From Paenibacillus sp. OV219 (lineage in GTDB: Bacteria > Bacillota > Bacilli > Paenibacillales > Paenibacillaceae), in the NCBI RefSeq assembly GCF_900110075.1, contig NZ_FOCJ01000002.1, forward strand, positions 496,001-560,000: DNA of 64,000 nucleotides, read 5' to 3'. Below, in pieces: positions 39,171 through 50,862 of this stretch. Numbering within the stretch: position 1 is the stretch's first letter; each line of letters starts with the position of its first letter. A program made the position numbers and the translations under genes. The notes under the pieces are model-generated. The model saw only the letters and a list, made by a program, of their open reading frames with translations, had not been told where the DNA came from and made no database searches.

Positions 39171-39199
39171 TTGACGCCCAACTACACGCATGATATTAT
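39171..39199 (+). promoter_or_regulatory. Sigma-A promoter of the sulfatase/transporter leader
   Basis: TTGACG (39171-39176), 17-nt spacer, TATTAT (39194-39199). It is 46 nt after the FtsH-like gene. I see no other good promoter before the first transporter gene, so this should drive the island through two terminator hairpins. Confidence 0.78.
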
Positions 39200-39257
39200 G
39201 AGTCACATAATAACTAAGTAAACTCATCGGAATTATAATACTATCTACCGGACCACC

Positions 39258-39297
39258 GGAGACCAGTGCCTATACAGGTGCTGAGTCTCCTTTTTTT
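39258..39297 (+). terminator. Leader terminator 1
   Basis: GGAGACCAGTGCC (39258-39270) pairs with GGTGCTGAGTCTCC (39277-39290) with one bulged A and two G-T pairs. Seven T residues follow (39291-39297). It would end a ~92-nt transcript from the promoter at 39171, and also any read-through from the FtsH-like gene. Confidence 0.88.
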
Positions 39298-39390
39298 ATG
39301 GAAACCGCCTGGTTGACCAGAGGTTCTTACTAAGGCTTCGGAGATATCCCATTGTAATCAAGATGAATAAAGCGTCGACTGGTTATCCAG

Positions 39391-39424
39391 AGACACAACA
39401 TGAACGACTATGTTGTGTCTTTTA
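39391..39424 (+). terminator. Leader terminator 2
   Basis: A perfect 11-bp stem, AGACACAACAT (39391-39401) with ATGTTGTGTCT (39410-39420), an 8-nt loop and a T-rich tail. It ends only 28 nt before the first transporter start codon. Confidence 0.86.
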
Positions 39425-39451
39425 TTATTTCAGGGGAAGGGAGCCTCTAAG

Positions 39452-40426
39452 ATGGAATTCGTTGACACCGAGCCTGCGCTCAAAGAGGTGGCAGTTCGAC
39501 CGCCGGTTCGCGTTCGCAAGAGAGCAAGTCTGCTAAGATACATCTGGTTCAACCGTTACCTGTATTTCATGCTGGTACCGGCGCTGGTATACTACTTGAT
39601 TTTCCACTACATCCCGATGTACGGTGCGGTCGTTGCGTTTAAGGATTTCAGCATTACAAAAGGAATTCTGGGCAGCGATTGGGCAGGCTTTAAGTATTTC
39701 GAGTACTTATTCTCGCAGGATAAATTTTGGCAGGTCATCAAAAACACCGTTGTCATCTCGCTGTACCGGCTTACATTTGGATTTCCCGCTCCGATTATCG
39801 CAGCATTGCTGTTGAACGAGGTCAGGGTAAAGATGTTCAAGCAGACGATACAGACCGTGATCTACCTACCGCATTTTATTTCTTGGGTCATTCTGGGAGG
39901 CATCCTAATCAATTTGCTCTCCACAGACAGTGGTGTAGTGAACAACATCATTAAGCTGTTTGGAGGCTCGCCGATTGGATTTCTAAGCGAAGAATCCTAT
40001 TTCCGCAGCACGCTTGTTTTCTCGATGATCTGGAAGGAGTTCGGCTGGAACACAATCATCTACATAGCGGCTTTGTCCGGAATCAGTCCACATCTGTACG
40101 AAGCGGCGGTTATCGACGGGGCTAATCGCTTTCAGCGGCTACTGTATCTCACGATTCCGCTGATCAGGGGCACCATCGTGCTCATTCTCATTCTTCGGAT
40201 GGGCGGCATTATGGAAGCGGGCTTCGAACAAATTTTCGTGCTCTATCATCCTGGTGTATATCGCGTCTCGGATATTATCGACACCTATGTGTACCGGATT
40301 GGCTTGACGGATGGGAGGTTCAGTCTTGCGGCGGCGGTTGGATTGTTTAAATCCTTGATCAATTTCACGCTGCTCGTTCTGGCAAATTGGCTTTCCAGGA
40401 GGATGGGAGAACAAGGTGTTTACTGA
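39452..40426 (+). CDS. ABC sugar-type permease, LplB family
   Basis: 324-residue inner-membrane permease of a CUT1-type importer, with six hydrophobic segments and the EAA loop (YEAAVIDGANRFQRLLYLTIPLI, shown in part as EAAVIDGANRFQ) that contacts the ATPase. An N-terminal basic stretch precedes the first span. The family handles oligosaccharides, often plant or host glycans. ATG 39452 follows AGGGGAAGGGAG. It is the first gene of the accessory island. No ATPase gene is nearby, as is usual for this class, which shares an MsmX-type ATPase. Confidence 0.94.
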   Translation: MEFVDTEPALKEVAVRPPVRVRKRASLLRYIWFNRYLYFMLVPALVYYLIFHYIPMYGAVVAFKDFSITKGILGSDWAGFKYFEYLFSQDKFWQVIKNTVVISLYRLTFGFPAPIIAALLLNEVRVKMFKQTIQTVIYLPHFISWVILGGILINLLSTDSGVVNNIIKLFGGSPIGFLSEESYFRSTLVFSMIWKEFGWNTIIYIAALSGISPHLYEAAVIDGANRFQRLLYLTIPLIRGTIVLILILRMGGIMEAGFEQIFVLYHPGVYRVSDIIDTYVYRIGLTDGRFSLAAAVGLFKSLINFTLLVLANWLSRRMGEQGVY

Positions 40427-40441
40427 TACGGGAGGGAGATT

Positions 40442-41308
40442 ATGCATTTCACAAGCAGAGTAGGGAAGCTATTCGACTCGTTCAATATTGGCTTCCTGGC
40501 GATTGTAGCAATCGTTACGATATATCCATTCTGGGATACGTTCGTTGTATCCATCATTCCACTGGATGAGTACCTCGGATCAAGTATTCATCTGTTTCCT
40601 AAACAAGTCACCTTCGAGGCTTATACCTACTTGTTCTCGATGAGTGAGCTTTGGACGTCTTACGGCGTGACGCTGTTCGTCACGATTGTGGGTACGGCGC
40701 TGAATATGATCCTTACGGTGATGGCGGCCTATGCGCTTTCCAGACCCGGGTTGAAAGGAAGCCGCGTAATTATGTTTCTCTTCGTGTTTACGATGATGTT
40801 CAGCGGCGGCATCATTCCGACCTACCTGTTGGTCAAAAACCTCGGCATGATGAACTCGGTGTGGGCATTGATTATCCCGAGCGCGCTCAACACCTATAAC
40901 TTGATCATTATGAAAAACTTCTTCACAGCGCTGCCTGACGGCTTGGTCGAAGCGGCACGAATTGACGGCTGTAATGACCTAGGGATCTTGTACAAGATTG
41001 TGATCCCCTTATCGATGCCGGCCATTTCCACCATCACACTCTTTTATGCTGTTACCCGGTGGAACGAGTTTTTCAACGCGATCTTCTTCATCAGCGACAA
41101 GGAGCTTTGGCCATTGCAGCTTTTCTTACGAAGTATGCTGTTCGAGAACGAATCCTCGTACTCGGGGGGTGGCGACAGCGTGTTTCTCCTCGGACCTTCG
41201 ATCAAGATGGCGACGGTCATGGCAGCATCCATTCCGGTCATGCTCATTTATCCGTTTTTCCAGAAGTATTTCACCAATGGCGTGTTGATTGGCGCGGTTA
41301 AGGAGTAA
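40442..41308 (+). CDS. ABC sugar-type permease, YtcP/MalG-like
   Basis: Second permease of the importer, 288 residues with six spans, and the EAA motif in VEAARIDGCNDLGILYKIVIP (part shown: EAARIDGCNDLG). It has the conserved C-terminal PFFQKYFTNGVLIGAVKE ending of this subfamily. It follows the first permease by 15 nt with a strong GGGAGGGAG ribosome-binding site. It forms the translocation pore together with the preceding protein. Confidence 0.95.
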   Translation: MHFTSRVGKLFDSFNIGFLAIVAIVTIYPFWDTFVVSIIPLDEYLGSSIHLFPKQVTFEAYTYLFSMSELWTSYGVTLFVTIVGTALNMILTVMAAYALSRPGLKGSRVIMFLFVFTMMFSGGIIPTYLLVKNLGMMNSVWALIIPSALNTYNLIIMKNFFTALPDGLVEAARIDGCNDLGILYKIVIPLSMPAISTITLFYAVTRWNEFFNAIFFISDKELWPLQLFLRSMLFENESSYSGGGDSVFLLGPSIKMATVMAASIPVMLIYPFFQKYFTNGVLIGAVKE

Positions 41309-41346
41309 TTCCTTCACTATAAAAAAATCAAGCAGGAGGCAAAGAA

Positions 41347-42945
41347 ATGATGTATCTGAGAGAGAAATCAATAAAAAAATGGGTGGTCTTGGCAGTAGCA
41401 GCAGCGCTAATCATAACGACAGGATGCTCGAATAAGCCGGACGCAACAAATGCAAAGGAAGCCAGCAGTAACGCAGCTGATTCCAATACCGCTTCCAATT
41501 CCGGTTCCACCTCCGAAGAGCCGTATGAGCTTGTTTATTTGACAACGGGCGACCAAGGGGCGAAGCCGCTAGTGCCGAACGATCGTATTATTGCCGAGAT
41601 TAACAAGCGACTGAACATCAAGCTGACGATCAAGATCGCGCCTGAGTTCTCGTACGACAAGATTAACGTAGCTATTGCAAGCGGAGATCTTCCTGACGTT
41701 GTGACGACGCAGTATCCTTCTTCCTCTGTCTCCCAGTGGATCAAGGAAGGCATTCTGCTTCCACTGAATGATTACTTTGACAAAATCCCAACGATTAAAG
41801 CAAAGCTCGATAATGGCCTGCAGTGGACAGCGGTTGACGGAAAGTATTACGGATATCCCTTCGTGAGCGGAATGGAGAAGTCGAATTACACGGTTCAATT
41901 CCGCAAGGACTGGCTGGATAAGCTAGGCCTGCAGTATCCGAAAACATTGGATGAATTTGAAGATACGCTGAAAGCCGTTGTGGAGAAGGACCCTGACGGC
42001 AACGGCAAGGCTGATACATTCGGCTACATCACGAACAAGCCTACTCCCGGCGACGCTCTAACTGCATTCGATTTCGTCCTTTATGCGTACGGTCTTCCTG
42101 ATGCGGACTATGTGCTGAACGATAAAGGAGAGATCATTCCACGTTTCGAGCACCCGGCCTTCAAGGCAGGCATTGAGGAGCTTCGCAAATGGTACAACGA
42201 GAAATTGATCGATCCCGAATTTATTTTGTATGATCGACCAGCGAAGGAACAAAAGTTTTTCCAAGGTAAAGCGGGCGTCATGGATGGTCCATTATTCCGC
42301 CACGTGAGCCGCATTGAAGGAAGCTTAAAGCAGGTCAATCCGGATGGCGTGCTCGGGTACTCGCCACCACCAACTGGACCGGATGGCAAGCAAGGTATGG
42401 CTACTCGTCCCAAAACAGCTTTGTTCACGGCTGTTACCAATAAGGCCAAGAACCCCGAGAAGGCAGCGGAATTCATCGAATTCATGCTGTCCAAGGAAGG
42501 CCGCGAACTGCTTCAGCTGGGCATCGAAGGCATCCACTATACGAAGCAAGGGGATAAAATTACTTACAATGAGGCGGAACGGGAGAAAGACGGATTTGCC
42601 CCGAATGGCTGGGCTCATCCGCTTGCTTGGGGCAACGTGACTTGGCCGATCGATGAAGACTACTTGCCGCAGACGGAGCTGAATATTGATCGCGCCAAAG
42701 ATTCGGTTAAAGTGGCTTCGCAATATTTTGTGCCGAATCTCATTACCCGCAAGACGGATGCGGAGATCGAATACGGCAAAGCCGTCAATGAAGTCTATAA
42801 CCAATATTTCGTGGACCTCTTGAAGGGCAAGCTTGATGTCGATAAGGGGATCGCGGAGCTCGGTAAGCAGTGGCGCCAAGCAGGCGGCGAAGAGATTCTG
42901 AAGGCGGTCAATGAAGAGTACAAGAAGGAAGGCGCAAGCAAATAA
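41347..42945 (+). CDS. Extracellular solute-binding lipoprotein (LipO-like)
   Basis: A 532-residue substrate-binding protein for the upstream permeases. The N-terminus has a lipoprotein signal (VLAVAAALIITTGC; lipid Cys about residue 27), followed by a Ser/Asn/Ala-rich linker. The mature part begins near EEPYELVYLTTGDQ. FVSGMEKSNYTVQFRKDWLDKLGL is a typical segment of these large CUT1 binding proteins, here given only in part (FRKDWLDKLGLQYPKTLDEF). Ligand not deducible; sulfated sugar is a guess from context. Confidence 0.93.
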   Translation: MMYLREKSIKKWVVLAVAAALIITTGCSNKPDATNAKEASSNAADSNTASNSGSTSEEPYELVYLTTGDQGAKPLVPNDRIIAEINKRLNIKLTIKIAPEFSYDKINVAIASGDLPDVVTTQYPSSSVSQWIKEGILLPLNDYFDKIPTIKAKLDNGLQWTAVDGKYYGYPFVSGMEKSNYTVQFRKDWLDKLGLQYPKTLDEFEDTLKAVVEKDPDGNGKADTFGYITNKPTPGDALTAFDFVLYAYGLPDADYVLNDKGEIIPRFEHPAFKAGIEELRKWYNEKLIDPEFILYDRPAKEQKFFQGKAGVMDGPLFRHVSRIEGSLKQVNPDGVLGYSPPPTGPDGKQGMATRPKTALFTAVTNKAKNPEKAAEFIEFMLSKEGRELLQLGIEGIHYTKQGDKITYNEAEREKDGFAPNGWAHPLAWGNVTWPIDEDYLPQTELNIDRAKDSVKVASQYFVPNLITRKTDAEIEYGKAVNEVYNQYFVDLLKGKLDVDKGIAELGKQWRQAGGEEILKAVNEEYKKEGASK

Positions 42946-42968
42946 CGATAGAAATGGAAACAGGTGCT

Positions 42969-44297
42969 ATGAATAAAAGAAGTGATCGTCCGAATGTCAT
43001 CGTGTTTTTCACGGATCAGCAGCGTTGGGACACGACAGGTGTTCATGCCAATCCGCTCGATTTAACGCCGAATTTCGACCGCATGGCACGTTCGGGAACC
43101 GATGTGCATCAATCCTTTACGTGTCAGCCGGTTTGCGGTCCAGCGCGTTCTGCGATGCAAACCGGTTTGTATCCAACCACAACGGGGTGCTATCACAACG
43201 GAATTCCGCTACCGGAAGGAACTCAAACGTTAGCGCATCATTTTCGCGCCTCCGGTTATCGAACCGGTTATATCGGCAAATGGCATCTGGCCGGCGAAGA
43301 GCCCGTACCGGCAAACCAGAGAGGCGGCTACGAATATTGGCTTGCCTCAAACGGCTTGGAGCATGCGTCGGACTCTTATCGAACAGTCGTCTATGACGAG
43401 CAGAACAGGCCGGTTCGACTGCCGGGTTATCGAGTGGACGCGCTGACGGATGCGGCCATTCGATATATCGATCAGAACCAGGAAGATCCGTTCTATCTCT
43501 TCGTCTCCTATATTGAACCGCATCAGCAAAATCATCTCGACAATTATCCGGCGCCGGATGGTTATCGGGAACGTTATCGCGGAGCGCCGCTCCCTCCTGA
43601 TCTCGCTGCACTTGGCGGGACGGCGCATCGGCATTACGCAGGCTACTGCGGCATGGTGAAGCGGCTCGACGAAGCGCTTGGAAGGCTGCTGGACACCTTG
43701 AAGAGTTTGTCGCTGCAAGACAATACCATTGTCCTGTATACGTCGGATCACGGCTGTCATTTCCGGACGAGAAATCAGGAATATAAGCGTTCACCCCATG
43801 ACAGCTCCATACGAGTGCCGACCGCAATTCAGGGTCCCGGTTTTACGGGTGGCGGTCAAATTCGCCAGCCCGTCAGCTTGATCGATCTGCCACCAACGCT
43901 GCTTGATGCGGCTGGGCTGGCCGTTCCTCCCGAGATGCAAGGAAGATCCATACTCCCATTGCTGCATGGCGGCAAGATGGACTGGCCGGAGGAGGTTTTC
44001 GTTCAAATTAGCGAAGACCATGTCGGCCGCGCCATCCGCACAGACCGTTGGAAGTATGCGGTGACGGCGCCGGACAAGGATGGCTGGAAGCATGCCGGAT
44101 CGGACATCTATGTGGAGGAATTCCTATATGACCTGCACGCTGATCCTGATGAATTGTTCAATCTCGCCGGGATTCCCGTACACCATGGCGACGCTTCTCG
44201 ACTGAGAGAGCAGCTGCTGCGGAGAATCCGGGAGGCGGAAGGCCAGTCTCCCGTTATCATTCCCGCCCAAGAACGAGAATGGCCAAGAGGTTATTAA
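42969..44297 (+). CDS. Sulfatase, Cys-type (island sulfatase 1)
   Basis: Alkaline-phosphatase-superfamily type I sulfatase. The N-terminal metal motif is FFTDQQRWDTTG, and the formylglycine Cys is residue 56 in VCGPARSAMQTG (CxPxR). HKW-type metal residues include GKWHLAG (about residue 118), and the second metal Asp-His lies in TSDHGCHF (about residue 258). No signal peptide, so it should act in the cytoplasm on imported substrate. The start is uncertain: ATG 42954 is also in frame, and neither has a strong ribosome-binding site. 443 residues. Confidence 0.92.
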   Translation: MNKRSDRPNVIVFFTDQQRWDTTGVHANPLDLTPNFDRMARSGTDVHQSFTCQPVCGPARSAMQTGLYPTTTGCYHNGIPLPEGTQTLAHHFRASGYRTGYIGKWHLAGEEPVPANQRGGYEYWLASNGLEHASDSYRTVVYDEQNRPVRLPGYRVDALTDAAIRYIDQNQEDPFYLFVSYIEPHQQNHLDNYPAPDGYRERYRGAPLPPDLAALGGTAHRHYAGYCGMVKRLDEALGRLLDTLKSLSLQDNTIVLYTSDHGCHFRTRNQEYKRSPHDSSIRVPTAIQGPGFTGGGQIRQPVSLIDLPPTLLDAAGLAVPPEMQGRSILPLLHGGKMDWPEEVFVQISEDHVGRAIRTDRWKYAVTAPDKDGWKHAGSDIYVEEFLYDLHADPDELFNLAGIPVHHGDASRLREQLLRRIREAEGQSPVIIPAQEREWPRGY

Positions 44298-44347
44298 TAT
44301 CTACTTGTCCTTATATATTCATTATTAGAGAGTGAGGAGAATTTACT

Positions 44348-45274
44348 ATGACGAAAGCAATTGTATCCGAGGATCGTCCCCGTCAAATTCCGGATCGAGG
44401 CATAAGGGGAGGTCCTCGCATCATCAACCGGTTGCCGGAAGGAGTAGAGGAACAGCCGTACACGCTGTTTCAAGTCAAGCCTTATGGTCCACTGATCGGC
44501 GCGGAAATCGAAGGCATCGACCTTCGCACTCCCGTAACGCCAGAGCTCCAGAAGGAGTTGAATCGCGCGTTGCTGGAGTGGAAAGTGATTTTCTTCCGTG
44601 ATCAGGACATCACAAGCGAGCAGCATCAGTCGTTCGCCCGTCTGTGGGGAGAGCTTGAGACACATCCTTTCCTGCCCCAAGGAAAGTCGGATGAAGTCGT
44701 TCGTTTCGCCAAGGATGACAAAAAAGCCGGGTATGAAAACAACTGGCATTCAGACGTAAGCTGGCGGTTAACACCTGCGCTTGGAGCTGTCCTCCGCGTT
44801 ACTGAAGCACCTTCTTTTGGCGGGGAGACCTTATGGTCTGATCAAGGTGCCGCTTACGACAACCTGCCCGATGAGATTAAGGTGAGAATCGACGGACTGA
44901 CGGCGATTCATGATTTTACCCACGTCTTCGGCGTGCGGCTCTCCCCCGAGGAATTGCTGATCCGCCAGGAGGAGTTTCCGGCTGCGGAGCATCCGGTCGT
45001 GCGCACCCATCCAGAAACGGGGAGAAAAACGCTGTACGTCAATCCGAACTTTACCGTTCGAATCATCGGTCTGGAGCAAGAGGAAAGCGAAGAACTCCTC
45101 TCGTACCTGTTCCGCCATTCGCAGCTGCCCGAGTTTCAAGTCCGCTTCCGCTGGGAAGCGAACTCCATCGCCTTCTGGGATAATCGCGCCACACAGCATT
45201 ACGCGAATTCGGACTATTACCCGAACCGCCGCGTTGCGGAGCGAGTGGCGATCGTAGGCGATCGACCTTATTAA
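44348..45274 (+). CDS. TauD/TfdA-type Fe(II)/2-oxoglutarate dioxygenase
   Basis: 308 residues. The facial triad is in NWHSDVSW (His134, Asp136) and QHYANSD (His284); a basic segment (VAERVAIVGDR) at the end supplies 2-oxoglutarate-binding Arg. Relatives include TauD (taurine), AtsK (alkyl sulfate) and TfdA. Placed between sulfatases, oxidative release of sulfite or sulfate from a sulfonate or alkyl sulfate is the favoured guess, but family members also act on unrelated substrates. GAGTGAGGAG precedes ATG. Confidence 0.9.
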   Translation: MTKAIVSEDRPRQIPDRGIRGGPRIINRLPEGVEEQPYTLFQVKPYGPLIGAEIEGIDLRTPVTPELQKELNRALLEWKVIFFRDQDITSEQHQSFARLWGELETHPFLPQGKSDEVVRFAKDDKKAGYENNWHSDVSWRLTPALGAVLRVTEAPSFGGETLWSDQGAAYDNLPDEIKVRIDGLTAIHDFTHVFGVRLSPEELLIRQEEFPAAEHPVVRTHPETGRKTLYVNPNFTVRIIGLEQEESEELLSYLFRHSQLPEFQVRFRWEANSIAFWDNRATQHYANSDYYPNRRVAERVAIVGDRPY

Positions 45275-45282
45275 GCAAGAGA

Positions 45283-45309
45283 TGAGCCCGCGCGCTTTCG
45301 CGGGCTTTC
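45283..45309 (+). terminator. Terminator inside the sulfatase island
   Basis: AGCCCGCG (45283-45290) pairs with CGCGGGCT (45297-45304), then TTTCTTC. It may reduce transcription between the dioxygenase gene and the second sulfatase. No promoter was recognised in the 30 nt before that gene, so read-through seems needed. Confidence 0.75.
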
Positions 45310-45339
45310 TTCACGATTATAGATGAGAGGAAGAAGCAG

Positions 45340-46734
45340 ATGGGTCAACCGAAGAAGAAACCGAATTTGTTGTTTATCCTTATCGACGACATGGGCTGGA
45401 AGGACTTGGGCTGTTACGGCAGCACCTTTTATGAAACGCCTAATCTGGACCGTCTGGCAGCAGAGGGGATGCGGTTTACGGACGCCTATGCCGCTGCTCC
45501 TGTCTGTTCGCCGACCCGTGCCAGCATTATGAGCGGGAAATATCCGGCGAATGTCGGCGTGACCAACTGGATCGGCGGTCAGACGGCGGGAAAACTGATC
45601 GATGCGCCTTATATCAAGCATCTTCCGCTTCAAGAGAAAAGTGTGGCTTTTGCATTAAAGGAGCAAGGCTACCGGACTTGGCATGTGGGCAAATGGCATC
45701 TCGGAGGACAACAATATTATCCGGACAAACATGGCTTCGACTTCAATATTGGCGGCTGTAGCTGGGGGATGCCACTGAACGGATTCTTTAGCCCGTATGG
45801 AATTGAGACGCTCGAGGAGGGTCCGGATGGAGAATACTTGACCGACAGACTGACGGACGAGGCGATCCAGCTGATCCGGCAAAATGACGAGACTCCATTC
45901 TTCTTGAATTTGTGGCATTATGCGGTGCACATCCCGATCGAGGTCAGCGCAGAGCTTACCGATCGTTTCGCGGAGAAGGCTAGAGTGCTCGGTTTGGACC
46001 AGCTCGAAGCTTTTGTAGAAGGAGAACCCTTCCCGTGCGAACATAAACAACATCTGCGGGTGCAACGACGCATTCTGCAGTCCGATCCCGCATACGCGGC
46101 GATGATATATAATCTCGATTGGAATATCGGCCGATTAATAGAAGCCTTAGAAGAGACGGGGCAGCTGGAAGATACGGTGATTGTATTCACGTCAGACAAC
46201 GGCGGCTTGGCAACGGCGGAAGGATCGCCGACCTGCAACAGTCCGCTTCAAGAAGGCAAGGGTTGGATGTACGAAGGAGGCGTTCGGGAGCCGCTCATCG
46301 TTCGTTGGTCCGGCGTTGTAAAGTCGGGCAGCGTCAGCGAGATTCCCGTGACGAGTCCAGATTTCTATCCAACTCTGCTGGAAATGGCAGGAGTTGATCT
46401 GCTACCAGAGCAGCACGAGGATGGCGTCAGTCTGGTGCCCTTGTTAAAGGGAGCGGAGTCACTGGGCCGGGACAATTTATTCTGGCATTACCCTCATTAT
46501 GGGAATCAGGGAGGGACTCCGGGGTCGTCGGTGAGGGAAGGGGATTACAAGCTCATCGAGTTTTTCGAGGACGGTCGCTTGGAGCTATACAACTTGAGAA
46601 CGGATCTCTCGGAAGAGCACAATATCGCGAAGCAGCAGCCGGAACTTGCTGAGCGGCTGCACCAGAAGCTTCGTGGATGGCGCGAGCGGATTGAGGCCGA
46701 AATTCCGGTGGGCAATCCGGCGTTCAGCCGCTGA
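45340..46734 (+). CDS. Sulfatase, Cys-type (island sulfatase 2)
   Basis: 464 residues, arylsulfatase A-like. It begins with LLFILIDDMGWKDLGCYG (two metal Asp), and the formylglycine Cys is residue 56 in VCSPTRASIMSG, a consensus C-S-P-T-R site. GKWHLGG lies near residue 118 and TSDNGGLA near 285. The Asp-Asp-Met-Gly-Trp start is typical of the largest sulfatase group (S1_16/S1_20-like; subfamily not assigned). No signal peptide is visible. GAGAGGAAG precedes ATG. Confidence 0.94.
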   Translation: MGQPKKKPNLLFILIDDMGWKDLGCYGSTFYETPNLDRLAAEGMRFTDAYAAAPVCSPTRASIMSGKYPANVGVTNWIGGQTAGKLIDAPYIKHLPLQEKSVAFALKEQGYRTWHVGKWHLGGQQYYPDKHGFDFNIGGCSWGMPLNGFFSPYGIETLEEGPDGEYLTDRLTDEAIQLIRQNDETPFFLNLWHYAVHIPIEVSAELTDRFAEKARVLGLDQLEAFVEGEPFPCEHKQHLRVQRRILQSDPAYAAMIYNLDWNIGRLIEALEETGQLEDTVIVFTSDNGGLATAEGSPTCNSPLQEGKGWMYEGGVREPLIVRWSGVVKSGSVSEIPVTSPDFYPTLLEMAGVDLLPEQHEDGVSLVPLLKGAESLGRDNLFWHYPHYGNQGGTPGSSVREGDYKLIEFFEDGRLELYNLRTDLSEEHNIAKQQPELAERLHQKLRGWRERIEAEIPVGNPAFSR

Positions 46735-46769
46735 GTGCCTCAACCTTTGTGCAGGAAGGAGGGTCATCT

Positions 46770-47738
46770 ATGAATGAAACAGAACGCAGGCCGTCGTGCT
46801 GCAGCATGAGCCGCGAAACTTTGACGGTAACCGCAATAGTAGAAAACGATGCTCATCTGCACACGGTTGCAGGACACGCTGCAAAGGAAAGCATGATCCA
46901 TCTGCCCGGAGGTTCTTTTCTAATGGGAACCGAGGACGCAGAAGGATTTCCCGATGATGGTGAGGGTCCGATTCGAGAGGTGGAGCTCAGCCCGTTCTAT
47001 ATCGACAGCTGTACGGTGACCAATGCTGAATTTGCCGAATTCGTCAGCAGGACGGGTTATGTGACTGAGGCGGAACGCTTTGGCTGGTCGTACGTGTTTC
47101 ATCTGTTCGTGCCGGAGCGGGTGCGAGCGTCTGATTCCCGGCTGGTTCCCGGCTTGCCGTGGTGGCTTGTGGTGAATGGAGCGAGCTGGCACCGTCCGGA
47201 AGGCGCTGGCTCCTCCATTGAAGCGCGGCTAGATCATCCCGTCATCCATATCTCGTGGCATGATGCGCACCGATATGCGGAATGGTCGGGCAAAAGGTTG
47301 CCTACCGAAGCGGAGTGGGAATATGCGGCAAGAGGAGGCCTTGTGCAGAAAAGATATCCGTGGGGAGATCTGTTGAAGCCTGGGGGGGAGCATCGCTGCA
47401 ACATTTGGCAAGGGAAATTTCCCGACAAGGACAACGCTTCGGACGGCTATGCAGGGACGGCACCGGTCCGATCGTTTCCTCCGAATGGATACGGACTTTA
47501 CCAAACGGTAGGCAACGTATGGGAGTGGTGTTCAGACTTGTTTAGTAGAGTGCCCGCCGCTCCAGGAAGAGCGAAGAATCCGAAAGGGCCGCGAACCGGC
47601 AGCTCACGCGTCATGCGCGGCGGCTCTTATCTATGTCATACCTCCTATTGCAACCGGTACCGAGTTGCTGCCCGCAGCTCCAACACAGCGGACAGCTCGA
47701 CGGGAAATCTGGGCTTCCGCTGTGCTGCCGATGCTTAA
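46770..47738 (+). CDS. Formylglycine-generating enzyme (sulfatase maturase)
   Basis: Copper-dependent oxidase that converts the sulfatase active-site Cys to formylglycine using O2. The 322 residues include the FGE-sulfatase domain from MIHLPGGSFLMGTED, with TNAEFAEFV, GKRLPTEAEWEYAARGG, GNVWEWCSDLF and the catalytic pair in GGSYLCHTSYCNRYR (Cys289 and Cys294). The C-terminus NLGFRCAADA is standard. About 45 extra N-terminal residues carry a Cys-Cys pair (PSCCSMS). It lies among its four substrates and should act in the cytoplasm. Confidence 0.95.
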   Translation: MNETERRPSCCSMSRETLTVTAIVENDAHLHTVAGHAAKESMIHLPGGSFLMGTEDAEGFPDDGEGPIREVELSPFYIDSCTVTNAEFAEFVSRTGYVTEAERFGWSYVFHLFVPERVRASDSRLVPGLPWWLVVNGASWHRPEGAGSSIEARLDHPVIHISWHDAHRYAEWSGKRLPTEAEWEYAARGGLVQKRYPWGDLLKPGGEHRCNIWQGKFPDKDNASDGYAGTAPVRSFPPNGYGLYQTVGNVWEWCSDLFSRVPAAPGRAKNPKGPRTGSSRVMRGGSYLCHTSYCNRYRVAARSSNTADSSTGNLGFRCAADA

Positions 47739-47799
47739 TGCTATGGTGGTGTGTGTGCGGACGAACGTCTTCAAATCAGCTAAAGGAGTGCAGTAGCCT

Positions 47800-49311
47800 A
47801 TGAAGAGCAGGCCAAATGTATTGCTGATCACAAGCGATCAACAGCATTGGAATACGATTGGGGCGTTTAACTCTGAGATTTCGACGCCTAATCTGGATCG
47901 TCTGGTGAGTGAAGGCACGGCTTTCACAAGGGCGTACTGCCCGAACCCTACCTGTACGCCGACCCGGAGCTCCCTAATCACAGGGATGTATCCGAGTCAG
48001 CATGGGGCTTGGACCTTGGGCACCAAGCTGTCCGAGAAGGTGCGGACGGTTGGTGAAGATTTCCTCGAAGCGGGTTACGCTACGGCCTTGGTGGGGAAAG
48101 CTCACTTCCAACCGCTAGCCTCCACGCCTGAATACGCTTCGCTGGAGTCGTACCCAGTTCTTCAGGATTTGGACTTCTGGAGAGAGTTTGATGAGACATA
48201 CTACGGCTTCCGTCATGTGGAGCTGGCTCGAAATCATGCGAATGAAGCTCATGTCGGGCAGCATTACGCGATTTGGCTGGAGGAGAAGGGCTGCTCGAAC
48301 TGGAGAGATTACTTCGTGGCTCCGACCGGAACGATGGATAAATCAGCAGCCCACAAGTGGGACATCCCTGAGCAGTATCATTATGACGCATGGATAGCGG
48401 AACGGACGAATGCTCTGTTGGAACAATATGAACGGGAGGACACTCCTTTCTTCCTATGGTCCAGTTTCTTCGATCCTCATCCGCCTTATCTGGTTCCAGA
48501 GCCTTGGGATACGATGTATGATCCTAACAAGTTGACAATTCCAAGTGGCGCGGCCCATGAGCACGATGCCAACCCACCGCATTTCCGGCTGACGCAGGAA
48601 GAGAATCCGGATTTCAGCGGGTATAAAGAAACGGGCTTCGGCATTCACGGCATGCACTCGCATAGGTATCAGGAGGCTACGCTCCGGCGTGACATTGCGA
48701 CCTACTATGCCATGACGAGTCTGATGGACAAATACATTGGACGCATTCTCGACAAGCTGGATGAGCTTGGTCTTTCGGAGAATACGCTTGTCGTCTTCAC
48801 GTCCGATCATGGTCATTTCTTCGGTCATCATGGACTGACAGCGAAGGGACCGTTCCATTACGAGGATCTTATCCGAGTCCCGATGCTGGCACGTTATCCC
48901 GGGCATGTTCCTGCGGGCAAGGTGAGCGACTCGCTGCAATCTTTGGTTGACTTTGCGCCTACTTTTCTTGCGTTTGCCGGACTGAAGGTGCCGTACACGA
49001 TGTCCGGCAAGGATCAACACGAGGTTTGGAACGGTCGTCAGAACGCTGCTCGGGATCACATTCTATGTGAGAACCATCACGAGCCCACGACCATTCATCT
49101 GAAAACTTATGTCGATGAGCGCTATAAGCTGACCGTTTATTACAAGCAGGAATACGGGGAGCTATTTGACCTCGAAGCCGACAAAGAGGAGCGGCACAAT
49201 CGGTGGAACGATCCGGATTATGCAGCCATCAAGTCGAGCCTGCTGCTAAAGTATGCATGGGCCGGCCTGGAACAGGAGCCACTATTTATGCCGCGTATCG
49301 CGCATGCATAA
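47800..49311 (+). CDS. Sulfatase, Cys-type (island sulfatase 3)
   Basis: 503 residues. It begins with RPNVLLITSDQQHWNTIGAF; the formylglycine Cys is residue 52 in TCTPTRSSLITG. The metal Asp-His is in TSDHGHFFGHHGL (about residue 335). The SDQQHW start and GHHGLTAKGPFHYEDLIRVP segment resemble choline-sulfatase and sugar-sulfatase groups. No signal peptide. AAAGGAG precedes ATG. The C-terminal ~100 residues (LYDLEAD-type segment GELFDLEADKEERHN) are usual for bacterial sulfatases. Confidence 0.93.
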   Translation: MKSRPNVLLITSDQQHWNTIGAFNSEISTPNLDRLVSEGTAFTRAYCPNPTCTPTRSSLITGMYPSQHGAWTLGTKLSEKVRTVGEDFLEAGYATALVGKAHFQPLASTPEYASLESYPVLQDLDFWREFDETYYGFRHVELARNHANEAHVGQHYAIWLEEKGCSNWRDYFVAPTGTMDKSAAHKWDIPEQYHYDAWIAERTNALLEQYEREDTPFFLWSSFFDPHPPYLVPEPWDTMYDPNKLTIPSGAAHEHDANPPHFRLTQEENPDFSGYKETGFGIHGMHSHRYQEATLRRDIATYYAMTSLMDKYIGRILDKLDELGLSENTLVVFTSDHGHFFGHHGLTAKGPFHYEDLIRVPMLARYPGHVPAGKVSDSLQSLVDFAPTFLAFAGLKVPYTMSGKDQHEVWNGRQNAARDHILCENHHEPTTIHLKTYVDERYKLTVYYKQEYGELFDLEADKEERHNRWNDPDYAAIKSSLLLKYAWAGLEQEPLFMPRIAHA

Positions 49312-49377
49312 GTCGAAAGCAACGGTAATTATCCGGAAGCTAGAAGCGTCCGGCATAGAGAAAGGTGAGATCTCGCA

Positions 49378-50862
49378 ATGAAAGCCATTATGGTCATGTT
49401 CGATACATTGAACCGGCATATGCTGTCCCCTTATGGGGGGCCCGATTGGATCCATACCCCGAATTTTAAGCGCCTTGCGGAAAGGACGGCCGTGTTCGAC
49501 AACAGTTATGTTGGCAGCATGCCCTGTATGCCCGCCAGAAGAGAGCTCCATACGGGCCGGCATAATTTTTTACATCGCAGCTGGGGACCGCTCGAACCGT
49601 TCGACGACTCCGCCATAGAGTTGATGGGAGATGCCGGGGTGTATACGCATTTAGTCACCGATCATCAGCATTATTGGGAGGATGGCGGAGGGACTTATCA
49701 TACAAGGTACAACTCGTTTGAGCTTATTCGCGGGCAGGAGGGAGATCCGTGGAAAGGCGAAGTAAGAACCCCGGATGGCCCCCTTCTGGATCACCTGCAT
49801 CCAATTGCGAAGAAAATGGTTCGACAGGATCGCATCAACCGGAAATACATACGGGAACAGGAGCAATTTCCGCAAGCACGGACTTTCGCAGGCGGTCTCG
49901 AATTCATCGAATCCAATTATTTGGAAGATAATTGGTATCTTCAGATCGAAACCTTCGATCCGCATGAGCCCTTCTACAGCCCGGCTGAGTTTAAAGAGCG
50001 GTATTCGCATGATTACGAAGGGACGCTAGCGGATTGGCCGATTTACGGGCCCGTTACCGAAGAGCCGGAAGACATCCGGCATATGCGGTTCGAATATGCC
50101 GCGCTGCTCTCGATGTGCGATCACTATTTGGGACAAGTACTGGATACGATGGACCGACTGGACCTATGGCAGGATACCTTGCTAATCGTGAACACGGATC
50201 ACGGCTTCTTGCTCGGCGAGCATGATCAATGGGCGAAGTGCGTGCAGCCCTTCTATAATGAAGTCGCGCATACACCTCTGTTCATATGGGACCCGCGGAC
50301 GGGCATTCAGAACGAGCGGCGCCAAAGTCTGGTACAAATGATTGACCTGCCGGCTACATTGCTCGATTTCTTCGACATTGAGCGGCCGAAGGATATGCAG
50401 GGCAGATCCTTGCGCCGAACGATTGAGGCGGATGTGCCCATTCGGGAGGTAGCCTTGTTCGGCATACATGGCGGTCACATCAATGTAACGGACAAGAGAT
50501 ACGTTTACATGCGAGCGGCAGTGACTACAGACAACCAGCCGCTGTACGATTACACACTTATGCCGACTCATATGCGGAGCCGCTTCGCTCCAGAGGAATT
50601 GAAGCAGCTTGAGTTAGCGGAGCCTTTCACCTTCACCAAGCAGATCAAGCCGCTTCGCATTCCGGCTCAAACACGGGGCAATTTGCATGATTTCGCTACT
50701 CTCTTATTTGATCTAATCCATGATCCTGAGCAGGCTACCCCTTTGCATGATCCCGAGGTTGAAGCTCGGTTGGTCGAGCTAATGATCGAGCTAATGCAAG
50801 ATAACGATGCACCGAAGGAGCAATATGAGCGATTGGGGCTTGGCGTACCTAGTCTCCAATAA
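49378..50862 (+). CDS. Sulfatase, Cys-type (island sulfatase 4)
   Basis: 494 residues. It starts KAIMVMFDTLNRHMLSPYGG, and the formylglycine Cys is residue 50 in PCMPARRELHTG, a C-M-P-A-R site. The second metal motif is NTDHGFLLGEHDQWAK (about residue 280). The start FDTLNRHML and the PARRELHTGR segment set it apart from the other three, resembling the subgroup near phosphonate monoester hydrolases and some heparan-type sulfatases. No signal peptide. GAAAGGTGAG precedes ATG. It is the last island gene, followed by a strong terminator. Confidence 0.92.
   Translation: MKAIMVMFDTLNRHMLSPYGGPDWIHTPNFKRLAERTAVFDNSYVGSMPCMPARRELHTGRHNFLHRSWGPLEPFDDSAIELMGDAGVYTHLVTDHQHYWEDGGGTYHTRYNSFELIRGQEGDPWKGEVRTPDGPLLDHLHPIAKKMVRQDRINRKYIREQEQFPQARTFAGGLEFIESNYLEDNWYLQIETFDPHEPFYSPAEFKERYSHDYEGTLADWPIYGPVTEEPEDIRHMRFEYAALLSMCDHYLGQVLDTMDRLDLWQDTLLIVNTDHGFLLGEHDQWAKCVQPFYNEVAHTPLFIWDPRTGIQNERRQSLVQMIDLPATLLDFFDIERPKDMQGRSLRRTIEADVPIREVALFGIHGGHINVTDKRYVYMRAAVTTDNQPLYDYTLMPTHMRSRFAPEELKQLELAEPFTFTKQIKPLRIPAQTRGNLHDFATLLFDLIHDPEQATPLHDPEVEARLVELMIELMQDNDAPKEQYERLGLGVPSLQ

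Follow-up and report, generated by a model that had tools for sequence, protein, structure and literature searches.

The leader of a sulfatase and transporter operon in Paenibacillus sp. OV219 contains two terminators, each of which shares its 5′ arm with a 21-nt hairpin, and the same combination of hairpin and overlapping terminator recurs in many families of Bacilli, mostly in front of sulfur genes. An antitermination switch between the two structures is strongly supported. The hairpin appears to be an undescribed, widespread antiterminator RNA that marks a sulfur-scavenging regulon of Paenibacillus and other Bacilli, which includes many sulfonate and sulfate-ester enzymes. The anatomy of the leader, its conservation, compensatory change in the hairpin, the association with sulfur genes, and the co-occurrence and linkage with DUF2292 were all read directly from sequence.

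Anatomy and conservation of the leader

The leader lies in the window, by which we mean the whole 64,000-nt stretch of DNA analysed; its features are listed in Table 1. The promoter scored 10/12 in a consensus scan and was the best sigma-70-type (sigma-A-like) match on the forward strand. That scan found no second promoter between this one and the start codon, the interval from 39425 to 39451 included. The initial annotation had held that the only good promoter lies upstream of two complete terminators and that expression has to pass both; the scan and the position of T1 and T2, each 3′ of the promoter, confirmed this. Transcription would start near 39206. The operator candidate directly past the −10 element we tentatively assign to CymR. 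The spacing of the genes that follow suggests an operon ending at 50862.

Table 1. Features of the leader and of the putative operon behind it, in window positions
Feature	Position	Strand	Description	Evidence
Promoter	39171–39199	+	TTGACG-17-TATTAT, TG before −10	Consensus scan; kept in congeners L009–L013
CymR/Rrf2-like operator candidate	39213–39236	+	ACTAAGTAAACTCATCGGAATTAT, directly past −10	Conserved in alignment A2
Antiterminator hairpin 1	39243–39263	+	AUC-UA-CCGG-ACCA-CCGG-A-GAC	R1 34.8 bits, E 2.2e-9; 7/7 congeners
Terminator T1	39258–39297	+	Stem 39258–39291 plus U7; 3′ strand of hairpin 1 doubles as 5′ arm	7/7 congeners
Hairpin 2	39304–39324	+	ACC-GC-CUGG-UUGA-CCAG-A-GGU, without terminator	−7.2 kcal/mol, z −1.4 (weak alone)
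Antiterminator hairpin 3	39374–39394	+	GUC-GA-CUGG-UUAU-CCAG-A-GAC	R1 29.7 bits, E 1.4e-7; 7/7 congeners
Terminator T2	39389–39429	+	Stem 39389–39422 plus U-rich tail; 5′ arm common to hairpin 3	7/7 congeners
Putative controlled operon	39452–50862	+	Two LplB/YtcP-type permeases, solute-binding protein, sulfatase, TauD dioxygenase, sulfatase, sulfatase-modifying FGE, two sulfatases	Pfam

We aligned the window's leader with six congeneric leaders (alignment A2). Four blocks are conserved: the operator candidate by the −10 element, the two units of hairpin and terminator (1 with T1, 3 with T2), and the ribosome-binding site. The stretch between T1 and T2 is poorly conserved. Both terminators are kept in all seven leaders, so that the initial annotation's check on homologous leaders came out in its favor, the structure being present in the aligned congeners. 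The stems of T1 and T2 have folding energies of −22.1 kcal/mol (z −5.3) and −17.0 kcal/mol (z −7.0), respectively, and the fold of the whole leader gave z = −6.7. By number alone, terminator-like sites here do not exceed chance (3 vs 1.4 ± 1.4). The first fold of the whole leader suggested a long-range pairing of approximately 39232–39252 with approximately 39326–39356, which was set aside given the poor conservation between T1 and T2.

The hairpin unit comprises 21 nt: a 3-bp helix, an NA/A internal loop (two bases versus one), a 4-bp helix and a tetraloop. Hairpins 1 and 3 have folding energies of −7.7 and −6.9 kcal/mol, and the inner helix of hairpin 3 has 3 bp in L013 and L014. Both copies belong to the training set of the covariance model R1, and their R1 scores in Table 1 are to be read accordingly. 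Because the 3′ half of hairpins 1 and 3 is the 5′ arm of T1 and T2, each hairpin is an antiterminator; the stretch common to hairpin and terminator is CCGGAGAC or CCAGAGAC, and the two structures are mutually exclusive. A hairpin alone is 10–14 kcal/mol weaker than the terminator, so some helper must hold it. In hairpin 2 the outer helix ACC/GGU replaces GUC/GAC and the internal loop is GC/A; it is less conserved than the other two, is missing in L014, and might be one more binding site, or else a relic. The tandem GACCAG and CTGGTT segments, from which the initial annotation had drawn several exclusive folds, are copies of this 21-nt hairpin. The overlap between alternative folds is real, but the arrangement is simpler: three local hairpins, with the 5′ arms of T1 and T2 taken up by the first and the third.

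As had also been claimed, no known RNA class fits: against Rfam 15 the leader gave nothing at gathering scores and, at E ≤ 10, just three weak, chance-level matches far below them. No ATG, GTG or TTG occurs between the inferred start (39206) and hairpin 1, and hence there is no leader peptide, as attenuation through a short ORF with Cys/Met codons would need.

The genes from 39452 to 50862 place a carbohydrate-type ABC transporter, four sulfatases, FGE and a TauD dioxygenase in one gene run, which looks like sulfated-sugar scavenging for sulfur.

The hairpin family and its sulfur genes

First searches with DNA alone reached close congeners and short fragments in other families. The pattern KACYGGNNNNCYRGAGAC was found in 64 of 101 related genomes, far above a backwards-pattern control; in the fetched loci, 79 of 94 distinct sites have an overlapping terminator behind them, and the remaining 15 resemble chance matches in coding sequence. 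In the order, R1 had matches in 248 of 300 genomes at E ≤ 0.5, many of them weak; in a draw of 400 genomes across the class, 95 matched at E ≤ 0.01. A single genome had up to about 15 matches.

A sequence-blind scan, in which the geometry 3+2+4+4+4+1+3 and the terminator overlap were fixed and nothing else, returned 48 distinct hairpins versus 5 in reversed sequence. With other loop geometries no more than 2 hairpins appeared, except for (1,0) and (3,2), which seem to be the same motif in a shifted register. The NA/A loop emerged unasked: the second base was A in 48/48 hairpins and the 3′ base was A in 46/48. With the NA/A rule added, a scan over 1.55 Mb yielded 82 hairpins versus 3 in reversed sequence. 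All fetched DNA contained 155 sites with 124 distinct 21-mers, in which all seven pairs change on both sides; since the scan rule demands pairing, these pair counts describe variants and are no independent proof of covariation, and it is the reversed control and the unasked NA/A loop that carry weight. Covariation on set A1, which was selected by the pattern, is uninformative because the pattern fixes most pairs. Inner helices were CCGG/CCGG, CUGG/CCAG, UCGG/CCGA, UUGG/CCAA, CCAA/UUGG, CCGU/ACGG and CCAU/AUGG; outer helices were GUC/GAC, GCC/GGC, UCU/GGA, ACC/GGU and GGU/ACC. The terminator arm starts 15 bases past hairpin base 1 in 125 of the 155 sites. Tandem units of hairpin and terminator occur in the window and in L098, L124, L364 and L373.

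The genes downstream are mostly sulfur genes, namely ssuE, ssuA, ssuD, ssuC, sbp-cysT-cysW-cysA, luciferase-like (sulfonate) monooxygenases, TauD and sulfatases, joined by nitroreductase, a LysR regulator with cystine-type transporter genes, and MetN-type transporters. Most were named by their sequence starts, Pfam having been run on the window's genes only. The window's genome has at least two further copies of the hairpin, upstream of a nitroreductase gene (L004) and of sbp (L005). In keeping with the operator candidate, the motif [AT]NGGAAT was found no more than 60 nt upstream of the hairpin at 42/155 sites, compared to 13/524 nearby control pieces, and Rrf2 genes adjoin several ssu copies.

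Two variants were seen beside the main family. GCU-UA-CCRG-N4-CUGG-C-AGC followed by a terminator occurs at L218:535 (−) and L229:131 (+), with C and not A in the internal loop; in L218 it precedes a zinc alcohol dehydrogenase and an AMP-ligase. This is possibly a paralogous antiterminator of another regulon. Near position 1500 of L022, L023 and L033, leaders of sbp-like genes contain GACCGGACCACCGGA with neither GAC nor terminator, perhaps a translational or decayed version.

Candidate factors, and the DUF2292 protein YezD

BglG, LicT and SacY (RAT hairpin, CAT domain PF03123) likewise involve a short, protein-held hairpin with an internal loop over the 5′ arm of a terminator, but hairpin sequence and loops are different, and the genes there concern PTS sugars, here sulfur. 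CAT_RBD (PF03123) was rejected as the factor, since 12 of 24 motif-rich genomes lack it at E ≤ 0.001 (for example, G088, G205, G211 and G251). ANTAR proteins (NasR, EutV; PF03861) likewise pair tandem hairpins with terminator overlap in nutrient-operon leaders. An ANTAR element is defined by two hexaloop hairpins, the second overlapping the terminator, whereas each unit here has a single tetraloop hairpin; ANTAR was rejected by this arrangement and by its absence from motif-rich G088, G073, G081, G099, G072, G205 and G098. GlpP (PF04309) was rejected as well, since motif-positive G001, G019, G072, G134, G066, G640, G361 and G412 lack it. CAT_RBD, ANTAR and GlpP are each lacking in several genomes that are rich in the motif and nearly complete. 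LoaP, with the dfn leader hairpin, mediates read-through of intrinsic terminators in Bacillota, and that hairpin is UNCG-type (PMC12691694). LoaP was rejected by hairpin type: loops here are ACCA, UUGA and UUAU in the window and A-rich elsewhere, mostly A-Y-M-R and not UNCG, and the hairpin overlaps the terminator itself.

Our candidate factor is a DUF2292 protein (PF10055), YezD, a distant relative of OscA (NF033785). In small genomes with one ssu operon, a DUF2292 gene often stands directly before the hairpin with an Rrf2 regulator nearby, as identified by Pfam. DUF2292 was present in 44/45 motif-positive genomes versus 12/35 model-negative genomes, the latter divided into 3/22 outside the window's family and 9/13 inside. 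The Fisher value of 2e-10 is not corrected for relatedness and overstates significance, because the choice of genomes was partly motif-driven and the genomes are related. At least 7 of the 12 DUF2292-positive, model-negative genomes have variant hairpins that the first model missed, near DUF2292 or before sbp (L462, L463, L465, L466, L467, L469 and L364); the surroundings of DUF2292 in L464 and L468 showed no hairpin, and in L470 and L475 the DUF2292 gene was not located. The hairpin-terminator begins within 100 nt past the DUF2292 stop codon in 12 of 30 DUF2292 loci. In 80 named loci, nearly all from Paenibacillus, DUF2292 comes after cysW, cysA or the regulon's alpha/beta-hydrolase (neighbors read by eye, rule-matched for the cysA cases only). 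Upstream of luciferase-like monooxygenases in DUF2292-negative genomes, hairpins were found at 0/12 loci, most of these being distant homologs and not true SsuD. Clustering of 60 neighborhoods of sites in large genomes found no recurrent linked regulator; the DUF2292 link emerged only from the small genomes with a single ssu operon.

The yezD gene of the window's genome lies on a different contig, behind cysA and away from the leader of the sulfatase operon. This candidate of 77 aa (G000:C23:221355–221465) scored 65.3 bits against PF10055, above the Pfam cut-off of 22; against the OscA equivalog NF033785, a close relative (L379) reached 38.9 bits, below the cut-off of 85. YezD is OscA-like, a helix and a beta-hairpin with a basic tail. 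A structure search with a monomer model (pLDDT 72, pTM 0.46) matched no solved fold (best E 2.4), and its fold is none of those known to bind RNA. Among solved structures, no natural homolog was recognized; the one significant match was Scone-E, which appears to be a designed protein. At L364:1700–1900 and L373:1690–1880, yezD is followed by a hairpin-terminator, a new promoter, a second hairpin-terminator with a different inner helix, and ssuE. On a Niallia plasmid (NZ_CP137637.1, L461:5001–5300), GCC-GA-UCGG-ACCA-CCGA-A-GGC and a terminator stand right behind the YezD gene, which adjoins TauE/SafE and an Rrf2 remnant. Reading by eye revealed no obvious hairpin at a Priestia plasmid copy (L459) or a Novosphingobium copy (L460), the single proteobacterial copy covered.

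Chromate resistance of Pseudomonas corrugata depends on oscA, a gene linked there to the response to sulfur starvation (PMC2996968). In Pseudomonas the gene stands before sbp and has a tie to sulfur starvation (PMC2996968, PMC3596284), and oscA has been listed among sulfur genes (PMC8466066). The literature searched yielded no molecular function for OscA/DUF2292 and no paper linking DUF2292, YezD or OscA to RNA. Deletion of yezD in B. subtilis left deep-starvation survival unaffected, a test that did not address sulfur (PMC6385201). Distribution and linkage make YezD a somewhat better than even candidate for the hairpin binder; that DUF2292/YezD/OscA form an unrecognized family of sequence-specific RNA-binding antiterminators, with the NA/A hairpin as their site, has in our estimate an even chance of being right.

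A proposed two-key sulfur switch

The explanation we favor, at somewhat better than even odds, is a sulfur switch with two keys, a CymR-like repressor at the promoter and YezD-bound hairpins that permit read-through. RNA polymerase would initiate near 39206 once the repressor leaves the operator past the −10 element. Each terminator would then stop transcription unless the 21-nt hairpin 5′ of it remains folded, and YezD would be produced under sulfur limitation, bind the hairpins and allow read-through. Two switches in series would keep the sulfatase operon tightly off. We infer the binding of YezD to RNA, the direction (bound as on), the signal and the role of CymR as repressor.

The same switch between hairpin and terminator could instead be held by another factor, an unrecognized RNA-binding protein or a moonlighting enzyme, with YezD merely a member of the sulfur regulon. 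This is a tenable but less probable reading. Universal proteins are beyond the reach of exclusion by profiles, yezD is elsewhere in the window's genome and has no recognized RNA-binding fold, and DUF2292 and the hairpin could co-occur merely as fellow members of the regulon; however, no other regulator recurred in the 60 large-genome neighborhoods, and DUF2292 stands directly before the hairpin-terminator in many lineages and tracks the hairpin across genomes. A small sulfur metabolite bound by the hairpin directly, without a protein, seems improbable. Its conserved NA/A loop, fixed geometry and tandem copies would suit such a mini-riboswitch, but the internal loop alone is fixed while helices and tetraloop vary, and Rfam gave no match; a hairpin this short (21 nt), whose loop and helices vary, is more probably the binding site of a protein than an aptamer.

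We consider it very improbable that the terminators do no more than reduce expression or stop read-in from the AAA/M41 protease gene upstream, with the hairpins as parts of strong terminators. T1 and T2 are indeed good terminators, but the promoter is upstream of both, the register of hairpin and terminator arm is fixed in 125/155 sites, and the unpaired NA/A loop, which a terminator does not need, is kept. A sensor of sulfated glycan dedicated to the sulfatase island (the initial annotation had named sulfated glycan, sulfate or a metabolite as possible ligands) agrees with an operon of carbohydrate-type transporter and sulfatases. As a one-off it has been overtaken by the hairpin family, which precedes a variety of sulfur genes across numerous families of Bacilli: the same hairpin stands before sulfate uptake, sulfonate, taurine and nitroreductase operons, with the sbp and nitroreductase copies in the same genome. 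The regulon thus already largely refutes this sensor, to which we give almost no credence.

The link to YezD provides a testable role for a small family of unknown function and for OscA, whose sulfur-starvation phenotype has been without a mechanism since 2009. If the switch with YezD as its second key is true, DUF2292 proteins would play under sulfur starvation the part that BglG and ANTAR proteins play elsewhere and would gate sulfonate, sulfate-ester, taurine and sulfate uptake operons in Bacilli, and RNA binding by DUF2292 would explain the 2009 oscA phenotype.

In bacilli, Naville and Gautheret described in 2010 a terminator-associated element common to a sulfonate ABC operon and an unknown gene; their main text names no structure, regulon or protein for it (PMC2965389). 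As far as that description goes, their element may be an early sighting of the same hairpin.
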